A stretch of DNA of 51,920 nucleotides, from the NCBI GenBank assembly GCA_012728915.1, contig JAAYEC010000073.1:1-51920 (forward strand), read 5' to 3'. A program made the position numbers and the translations under genes. Shown here piece by piece: positions 47,291 through 49,326 of the stretch (position 1 is the stretch's first letter; each line of letters starts with the position of its first letter). The stretch is from Deltaproteobacteria bacterium (lineage in GTDB: Bacteria; Desulfobacterota; Syntrophia; Syntrophales; UBA2192). Under the pieces are notes generated by a model. The model saw only the letters and a program-made list of their open reading frames with translations. It ran no database searches and was not told where the DNA came from.

Positions 47291-48289
47291 CTAGCGCGGC
47301 TTGAGCGCTTCCACCAGCCCGTCCATCCGATGCCCTTTCTGCAGGAGCCGCACGCCTGTAAACCCGGCCGCCTCGAGCCAGTCCCGGACCTCCTCGAAGG
47401 TGTACGTCGATCCGCCCTTGGTGTTGACGAGCATGTTGACGGCAAAGACCGCCCCGTCGCGGGGCTGCGTGCGATCGGGGTCCATGATGTGATCGCGGAT
47501 TACGACGCGGCCCCCGGGGACGAGGGCCCGGAACACCTTGCGGAAAAGCTCACGGTTGTCCTGCGGGCTGCCCTGGTGGATGATGGCCGACAGCAGCGCC
47601 AGGTCGTGCCCGGCGGGCAGCTCGTCGCGGTAGAAGTTGCCCGCCGCGAGGCGGACGCGGCCGAGCAGTCCCGCGTCGGCCAGCCGCCTGCGGGCCATGG
47701 GGATGACCTCGGGCCGGTCGAAGAGCGTCGCCGTCATTCCCGGCGCCGCCCCGAGGAACGCGATGGTGTAGGTCCCCGAGGCGCCGCCCACGTCGAGCAG
47801 GCTCTCCGCGGCTTCCGGACCGATGGCCGCCACGATTTTTTCCGCCAGGGGAAGCCCTACGACGTGCATGGCGCCGATGAAGGCGGAAAGCTCGTCGAAA
47901 CGGCCCCCCGCGTCGGAGGCGAGGGCCTCCTGCGGCCCTGTTGCCCTGACGGCGGGCGTGAGGCCGGACCAGCTCTCCCAGAGATGGGCCGCATGGAGGA
48001 CCATGGGAATCACGGACCGGGGGCTCCCGCCGGACAGAAACGGGGCGGCCGCGGGGGGCGTGCGGTAGGCGCCGTCCTGCTTTTCCAACAGTCCCATCGC
48101 CGCAAGGGCGTCGAGCAGCACGGTCAGGGCGCGGAGGTCGCAGTGGAGCATGCCGGACAGGCCCTCGGCGGTTTGCGCCGTCTCCGCGAGCGGGGTGAAG
48201 AGGTCCAGCTCCGCGGCGGTCAGCAGGATGCGGCTCTCCATGAACTGCCGCGCCAGCCTCAGGACGGCTTCGGGGGTGTCGTAGCTCAT
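47291..48289 (-). CDS. SAM-dependent methyltransferase (O-methyltransferase-like, two-domain)
   Basis: The 332-residue enzyme has an N-terminal helical dimerisation domain resembling a winged helix (LLTAAELDLFTPLAETAQTA, LTVLLDALAAMGLLEKQDGA). The C-terminal Rossmann methyltransferase has motif I LLDVGGASGTYTIAFLGAAP near 165 and GRVVIRDHIMDPDRTQPRDG near 260. This is the plan of hydroxyneurosporene and antibiotic O-methyltransferases (PF00891-like). The substrate is unknown. It begins 13 bases after the end of the rhodanese gene and is probably co-transcribed with it. Confidence 0.85.
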   Translation of the reverse strand: MSYDTPEAVLRLARQFMESRILLTAAELDLFTPLAETAQTAEGLSGMLHCDLRALTVLLDALAAMGLLEKQDGAYRTPPAAAPFLSGGSPRSVIPMVLHAAHLWESWSGLTPAVRATGPQEALASDAGGRFDELSAFIGAMHVVGLPLAEKIVAAIGPEAAESLLDVGGASGTYTIAFLGAAPGMTATLFDRPEVIPMARRRLADAGLLGRVRLAAGNFYRDELPAGHDLALLSAIIHQGSPQDNRELFRKVFRALVPGGRVVIRDHIMDPDRTQPRDGAVFAVNMLVNTKGGSTYTFEEVRDWLEAAGFTGVRLLQKGHRMDGLVEALKPR

Positions 48290-48302: not shown

Positions 48303-48623
48303 TTATTCCTTCAGAACCCTGTAGCCCGCCTTCTTCCAGCCCTCGACGCCGTCGGACAGGGCCTTGGCGTTGGCGTAGCCGAGCTTGTTGTACCTGGCCG
48401 CCTGACCGGCGGCCGTGTGCTCCTTCGTTCAGGCGCAATAGAAGACGATCTCCTTGTCTTTGGGGAGCGTCGGCAGCATTTTCTGGAACTCGGCGAACGA
48501 GACGGCCCCCTCGAGCCGCAGGGCGCCGAATTTCTCTTCGTCTTCGTAGCCGCAGACCAGGAGGGCCCGGCCGGCCATGACCTTCTCGTAGGCTTCCTTT
48601 GGTGTGATTCGGGCGGCAGGCAT
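48303..48623 (-). CDS. Rhodanese-like protein with predicted selenocysteine (in-frame TGA)
   Basis: The 106-residue frame is interrupted by one TGA at 48429-48431. Before it the sequence reads KDKEIVFYCA and after it TKEHTAAGQAARYNKLGYAN, then SDGVEGWKKAGYRVLKE. Together these make a normal full-length single-domain rhodanese. C63 occupies the usual active-site position and the TGA falls at residue 65, two residues on, giving FYCAU. A perfect hairpin with a GGU apical loop lies just downstream of the TGA. ATG 48623 is chosen because GGAGAAGGA lies four bases upstream; the frame is open to 48704. A simple nonsense mutation is the main alternative. Gene fragments annotated as ending at the TGA would be wrong. 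Confidence 0.78.
48396..48414 (-). promoter_or_regulatory. Bacterial SECIS-like hairpin
   Basis: On the minus strand, 14 bases after the TGA, the message folds as GGCCGCC, loop GGUCA, GGCGGCC. That is a perfect 7-bp stem with GGU in the apical loop, about 21 bases from the codon. This spacing and loop match bacterial selenocysteine insertion elements. Confidence 0.72.
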
Positions 48624-48783
48624 GCTGTCCTTCTCCTTCATCCGGTATTCGCCCGGCGGGCGGTCGACCGGAATCATCTTATCATAGTCGGCTTGACTTC
48701 CCAAGTCTCCCGAAAGGAGTGGCGTTTTGGCCTGCTCTCTGCTAAATATGGTCCCGTTCTCTCATGGGAAAGGGAAAGAGGCC

Positions 48784-49326
48784 ATGACCGGCGTGTTCAT
48801 CTGTCCGGTAGACGACGAATCGGCCGCCTTCGGGCCGGCCCTGGAGATCGGGTGCGCCCTCGGCACGGTACTGCCCTTCATCAACGATGCGGGCGAGGCC
48901 GAAGTCATGAAGAACCTGTACCCCGGCGGCCACTGTCACGTCTGGGGGGTGCGGGACGAGGGGGAAAACCGCCCGGTCTGGGAGGGGATGGCCGCCGGCG
49001 ACCTCCTGCTGGGGTATCGCAACGGCGCCATCCTGACGGCCTCGACCGTTCTGTACAGGACCCGTAACCCCGCCCTGGCAGATCGCCTGTGGGGCGGCAC
49101 GCCGGAGAGGCCTTTCGAGCTGATGGGCTTCACCGGCAGGCCGCATGTCGGCGAGGTCCCGATCGTTTCGCAGATGCTCGGATATCTGGACCCGGATTAC
49201 CGCGGGTTCACTCGACTCGGCCCGGAGAAGTGCCGGGCCATCCACAACGCCTTCGGGTCGCTCGAAATGTTCGTCCGGCTGGGCCTGCGGTACGACTTCC
49301 CCTTCAACTTCCGCCACTCGGAATAA
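48784..49326 (+). CDS. EVE/PUA-like domain protein (stand-alone)
   Basis: The 180-residue protein shows the pattern GHCHVWGVRDEGENRPVWEG, then MAAGDLLLGYRNGAIL, then LADRLWGGTPERPFELMGF. This resembles the PUA-fold EVE-type domains found at the N-terminus of some McrB-like modification-dependent restriction proteins. I infer a nucleic-acid-binding role, possibly reading a modified base, but no nuclease or ATPase domain is attached and none is adjacent. AAAGAGG just before the ATG at 48784 fixes the start. The gene ends in a strong bidirectional terminator. Confidence 0.5.
   Translation: MTGVFICPVDDESAAFGPALEIGCALGTVLPFINDAGEAEVMKNLYPGGHCHVWGVRDEGENRPVWEGMAAGDLLLGYRNGAILTASTVLYRTRNPALADRLWGGTPERPFELMGFTGRPHVGEVPIVSQMLGYLDPDYRGFTRLGPEKCRAIHNAFGSLEMFVRLGLRYDFPFNFRHSE

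Follow-up and report, generated by a model that had tools for sequence, protein, structure and literature searches.

A minus-strand gene running from 48623 to 48303 in the window (the whole stretch of DNA analyzed here, 51,920 nucleotides of contig JAAYEC010000073.1) very probably specifies a true selenoprotein, a free-standing cytosolic rhodanese in which UGA codon 65 would be read as selenocysteine (Sec). Judging from the sequence, we place the probability of this reading at roughly 0.93. A preliminary description of the window had called the gene a probable selenoprotein, and that view is supported by conservation of the TGA and of an RNA structure, by purifying selection before and after the TGA, by the presence of Sec machinery, and by a rhodanese fold. 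The preliminary description gave no strand; the features listed here are all on the minus strand:

48303..48623, minus strand: predicted selenoprotein gene encoding a single-domain rhodanese of 106 aa with Sec at residue 65 (ATG 48623-48621, TAA 48305-48303; read-through translation, Pfam, AlphaFold2 model)
48429..48431, minus strand: in-frame TGA, predicted Sec codon 65 (FYCAU; TGA conserved in relatives, Sec machinery in the genome)
48435..48437, minus strand: codon (TGC) of the predicted catalytic Cys63, also TGA (UxU) in three clade members (invariant as Cys or Sec in the alignment, in which U is shown as C)
48552..48554, minus strand: codon (TGC) of Cys24, in the signature LLVC[AG]Y, in place of the rhodanese DxR Asp (invariant in 24 of 24 aligned members)
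48396..48414, minus strand: bSECIS-like hairpin with stem GGCCGCC (48414-48408), loop GGUCA (48407-48403), and stem GGCGGCC (48402-48396) (fold, recoding test, covariation)
48630..48637, minus strand: probable Shine-Dalgarno region, a purine-rich AAGGAG approximately 9 nt before the ATG (sequence inspection)
47291..48289, minus strand: PF00891 O-methyltransferase family gene, 13 nt after the rhodanese stop and possibly cotranscribed (Pfam, 88.7 bits; neighborhood clustering)

Under translation table 11, the frame stops at the TGA, and the mechanical open reading frame (ORF) list contains a 91-aa ORF that starts at an upstream TTG and ends at 48429. An ordinary gene caller would therefore truncate the rhodanese, in keeping with the earlier expectation that ordinary annotation would miss or split it. 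Translation with TGA as U yielded a 106-aa read-through product (MPAARITPKEAYEKVMAGRALLVCGYEDEEKFGALRLEGAVSFAEFQKMLPTLPKDKEIVFYCAUTKEHTAAGQAARYNKLGYANAKALSDGVEGWKKAGYRVLKE), confirming that the TGA is the sole interruption of the rhodanese and that it lies two residues past the active-site cysteine, at codon 65 relative to C63 (FYCAU). The Pfam Rhodanese model PF00581 matched the window protein with 32.8 bits, against a gathering cutoff of 22.2, and the match spans the TGA, in line with the observation that family sequence flanks the TGA on both sides. An AlphaFold2 model of the window protein, built from 24 aligned relatives, had a mean pLDDT of 92.2 and a pTM of 0.85, and the solved structures that it matched were rhodaneses, with GlpE and YgaP among them. 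A rough screen of the entire window for TGA codons with coding-like flanks on both sides returned four, among which only the codon 65 TGA has two-sided protein-family support; the other three resemble, by eye, antisense frames or a gene junction.

The search for relatives covered 395 genomes from the phylum and 155 from the order. TGA is found at exactly codon 65 in 45 members of one clade, a count that includes the window gene and its paralogue. The carriers comprise orthologues in all five congeners that have one, about 81-84% identical to the window protein, and roughly 40 others spread over 19 family-level groups, mostly 45-62% identical. Clade members are present in 25 of the 395 sampled phylum genomes. 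Several species have two or three copies, and the second copy in the source genome (C32:88978), which is 52% identical to the first, also carries the TGA. The preliminary description had proposed aligning homologues for cysteine or TGA at residue 65, and sister species indeed carry TGA there. No member of the clade has Cys at this residue; outside the clade, Cys occupies the homologous site as FYCSC in L143/L145, from the branch of the NCBI family NF041203, and as FYCAC in the DedA-rhodanese fusions L091/L092. The only otherwise intact clade member lacking Sec is L139 (FYCGSG), and L052 is frame-broken. A congeneric orthologue, L128 (genome G473), has an extra in-frame TAA at codon 28 and may be decaying or contain a sequencing error. 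A profile search of the genome contigs, in which Sec was entered as Cys and TGA could not be matched, returned only two distant Cys relatives, and a search of a plasmid collection gave one weak match (34%).

Purifying selection has acted on both parts of the gene. Over ten congener pairs, dN/dS was 0.11-0.74 upstream of the TGA and 0.13-0.61 downstream, the downstream values being biased upward because the synonymous sites of the hairpin are themselves constrained. The downstream ratio is well below 1 in most pairs, and Trp, Gly, and other fold residues past the TGA are invariant in the alignment.

The RNA downstream of the TGA also shows signs of constraint. The hairpin begins 14 nt past the UGA, with its apical loop 21 nt past it, and it consists of the perfect 7-bp stem with GGU in the loop that had been reported previously (GGCCGCC-GGUCA-GGCGGCC). 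According to the wording of PMC1088965, a bacterial SECIS hairpin lies just downstream of the UGA and has a small apical loop containing G, and the hairpin of the window gene has both properties. A 42-nt piece folds with a minimum free energy of -17.6 kcal/mol (z = -2.8 relative to dinucleotide shuffles). Each side of the stem partly encodes Ala-Ala, so that Ala codons by themselves might produce a seeming stem; we therefore performed a synonymous-recoding test. When synonymous codons were redrawn from each locus's own usage, the stem was expected in 6.4 genes, whereas it is kept in 42 of 45; such sampling counts ignore relatedness and so are not probabilities. In all 36 cases in which the loop encodes Gly, the codon used is GGT, although GGT accounts on average for 12% of Gly codons (8% in the window); genes that have Arg or Ser there instead retain G in the first two loop bases. 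Two synonymous third positions pair as C-G in 21 genes, as T-A in 21, and otherwise in 3 (covarying in 42 of 45, a count that related sequences inflate). These third positions switched about 8-9 times on the tree; strongly supported branches alone leave three independent covariation pairs (2 agreeing, 0 disagreeing, and 1 uninformative), too few for significance. This pattern of sequence conservation indicates that the hairpin is under selection at the RNA level.

The source genome (2.79 Mb in 81 contigs, estimated to be 100% complete) encodes the apparatus that Sec insertion would need. The earlier suggestion to search for selA, selB, selC, and selD was followed, and all four are present: selA (609 bits), selB (370 bits), selD (385 bits; L090 on contig C79), and selC in the form of a tRNA-Sec (76 bits with RF01852; anticodon tca according to ARAGORN). 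The selD gene has an in-frame TGA of its own, in the context HGAGUACKIG; Sec-containing SelD is common among related bacteria (list in PMC1794560). Across the sampled phylum, selA is found in 355 of 395 genomes, a prevalence that makes its co-occurrence with the rhodanese uninformative, and it is present in every carrier genome that is at least 90% complete. No selA match was found in four incomplete carrier genomes (G355, G396, G473, and G475; 77-88% complete), and G464, which is 95% complete and has selA, yielded no tRNA-Sec above the cutoff. In the source organism, the SelA/SelB/SelD/tRNA-Sec system would decode UGA 65 as Sec, directed by the hairpin inside the coding sequence.

Two other readings of the TGA have to be weighed against Sec insertion. 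If the codon were a true stop, the gene would be a pseudogene or the product of a sequencing error and its downstream part a relic, as might be supposed from the table 11 ORF that ends there and from the draft state of the assembly, with its 81 contigs. The recurrence of this TGA at an identical codon position across 45 genes, five congeners included, is difficult to reconcile with this idea, and conservation in independent genomes refutes both the pseudogene and the sequencing-error versions of it; the low downstream dN/dS in most pairs and the invariant fold residues after the TGA likewise speak against a relic. We therefore regard a true stop as very improbable. Still less credible is a reassigned code, under which the TGA, which does stand in frame, would specify a different amino acid or undergo selenium-free readthrough. 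TGA is the ordinary stop of other genes in the window, and thus is not reassigned, and it also ends several rhodanese relatives. Further, the genome has complete Sec machinery, and related proteins have Cys at the site rather than Trp or Gly.

Selenoproteins of the CxU rhodanese kind have already been catalogued, as "rhodanese-like domain-containing protein form 3," NF041203 (PMC13188914, PMC9312934), and a marine deltaproteobacterium is recorded as having a rhodanese-like protein with Sec (PMC8318568); a literature search on NF041203, LYCAU, or FYCAU found nothing further of relevance beyond PMC13188914 and PMC9312934. The statement in the preliminary description that Sec rhodaneses had been reported before was thus correct, but the window protein itself falls in a separate clade and not in NF041203. 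Against the NF041203 model (rhodanese_LYCAU), it scored 55.3 bits, short of the cutoff of 115, in an alignment limited to the C-terminal residues 35-103, and among 24 clade members the strongest match had an E value of only 1.3e-19. In a tree of 102 sequences, the clade members and L139 formed one clade of 46 rows (SH-aLRT 99, branch length 0.71) apart from the NF041203 sequences. The two groups share the rhodanese domain, the CxU motif (FYCAU in the window), an 18-residue spacing between the catalytic Cys and the Gly-aromatic pair that follows it, the occurrence of UxU variants, and a common presence in the phylum. They differ in that most clade members have no signal peptide, that the clade has an invariant Cys24-[AG]-Tyr26 where NF041203 has Asp-Val-Arg, and that the clade motif is mostly FYCAU rather than LYCAU. 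Within the NF041203 branch, Sec has been swapped for Cys (FYCSC) in L143 and L145, which lie near L071 and L080 in the tree and are paralogues in genomes that also keep the Sec form.

Comparison with other rhodaneses likewise set the clade apart. TsoB (NF045694), a rhodanese/DsbD fusion selenoprotein, also has a rhodanese domain with Sec, but the window protein matches it only weakly (20 bits against a cutoff of 805) and has no DsbD part. A Sec-containing rhodanese-related sulfurtransferase from the Sargasso Sea, filed under COG2897 (SseA type), likewise comes with a bacterial SECIS (PMC1088965) and is set beside the window protein by description only. The single-domain rhodaneses GlpE and YgaP share the fold (TM-score 0.65-0.77) and the position of the catalytic Cys but have no Sec. 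In GlpE, the DxR Asp is present (Asp-Val/Ile-Arg) where the clade has Cys24, and by count 16 residues separate the catalytic Cys from the Gly-aromatic pair, making the active-site loop region of the clade two residues longer. The DedA-rhodanese fusions have the cysteine version of the motif, with CxC where the clade has CxU, but they are membrane-protein fusions that retain DVR and are 41-44% identical over half of the domain. On sequence grounds, the clade appears to be a so far unnamed branch of the catalogued CxU selenoprotein kind, distinct from NF041203, and its members may sit unlabeled in published lists.

Some members of both groups depart further from the usual rhodanese arrangement. 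The catalytic Cys codon is also TGA in clade members with the motifs FYUSU (L034/L108), LYUAU (L050), and FYUAU (L140), and UxU likewise occurs in NF041203 at L066, L072, L076, and L087 and in a gene on contig C6 of the source genome (LYUAU). In the UxU rhodaneses of both clades, a single hairpin might act on the two UGA codons, its apical loop lying 21 and 27 nt away. The C6 gene (L089:5037-6653; source genome C6:29036-30652) encodes 539 aa with a signal-peptide-like start, and its NF041203 rhodanese has two TGA codons, so that Sec would replace the catalytic Cys too. This rhodanese is fused to a multiheme cytochrome c (PF13447, PF13435) with weak similarity to hydrazine dehydrogenase, and the protein is possibly a double selenoprotein that couples sulfur chemistry to electron transfer. 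Within the clade of the window protein, L137:556-1947 and L138:1-1269 are in-frame fusions of an FYCAU rhodanese with a patatin-like phospholipase domain (PF01734), from two genera of the same order outside the window genus.

The replacement of the DxR Asp by Cys24 argues against plain rhodanese catalysis; thiosulfate sulfurtransferase activity, with sulfur transfer by Cys63, is putative. The parallel sheet of rhodaneses has the strand order 32451. In the AlphaFold2 model, residues 20-24 and 58-62 form strands, and this order puts Cys24, at the end of strand 2, beside Cys63, at the end of strand 4; Cys24, Cys63, and Sec65 should therefore cluster in the predicted fold. A thiol positioned two residues from a selenol would suit a two-electron reductive step. 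In the mechanism we propose, Cys63 would take up sulfane sulfur or another two-electron oxidant (persulfide, thiosulfate, polysulfide, or perhaps selenium or arsenic oxyanions). The Sec65 selenolate would then resolve Cys63, freeing HS- or the reduced product and leaving a Cys63-Sec65 selenylsulfide, and thioredoxin or a similar dithiol would reduce this bond, possibly via the invariant Cys24. We see roughly even odds that the enzyme is, by such a mechanism, sulfane-sulfur reductase-like and not a plain sulfurtransferase. The fusion of a related UxU rhodanese to a multiheme cytochrome in the source genome is consistent with a redox role.

Alternatively, Sec65 might serve in selenium or metal(loid) handling, for example as a selenide carrier or in arsenic or mercury binding, and not in persulfide reduction. 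The Cys-X-Sec pair together with Cys24 would make a plausible soft-metal site, a part in selenium metabolism is known for other rhodanese domains (YbbB/SelU, cited in PMC1794560), and no gene context singles out a substrate. We nonetheless consider this role rather unlikely, since the same cytochrome fusion favors electron transfer. The neighborhood also bears on the earlier suggestion that the adjacent methyltransferase shares a substrate pathway with the rhodanese, for instance in the methylation of sulfur, selenium, or arsenic species. The two genes are 13 nt apart on the same strand, and the methyltransferase is near the rhodanese in the window and in three congeners, at a growing distance (0.3-1.5 kb between starts). 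This linkage is confined to the genus: the methyltransferase is not beside any relative outside it or beside the second copy in the source genome, and its matches are to O-methyltransferases (PF00891). A functional partnership is thus improbable. When the neighborhoods of 48 loci were clustered, no partner was conserved beyond the genus, and the two patatin-fused members outside it have no common theme. Divergent from the rhodanese in the window is a 180-aa ORF (48784-49326, plus strand) with no Pfam or NCBIfam match.

Returning to the reductase-like reading, we tentatively propose, with slightly less assurance than for the mechanism itself, that the clade is a distinct, almost always Sec-containing cytosolic subfamily whose fold has been rebuilt around a putative Cys24/Cys63/Sec65 redox triad (Cys24/Sec/Sec in three members). 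A sulfurtransferase scaffold would thereby have become a selenol-dependent sulfane-sulfur reductase that falls outside current selenoprotein models and is likely truncated in annotation. Because the NCBI model for CxU rhodaneses misses the clade, annotation probably overlooks these genes or ends them at the TGA. The clade raises the question of why Sec stands beside, and sometimes replaces, the catalytic Cys, with no Cys-for-Sec form found in the clade, and its UxU members and patatin fusions offer direct handles for biochemistry.
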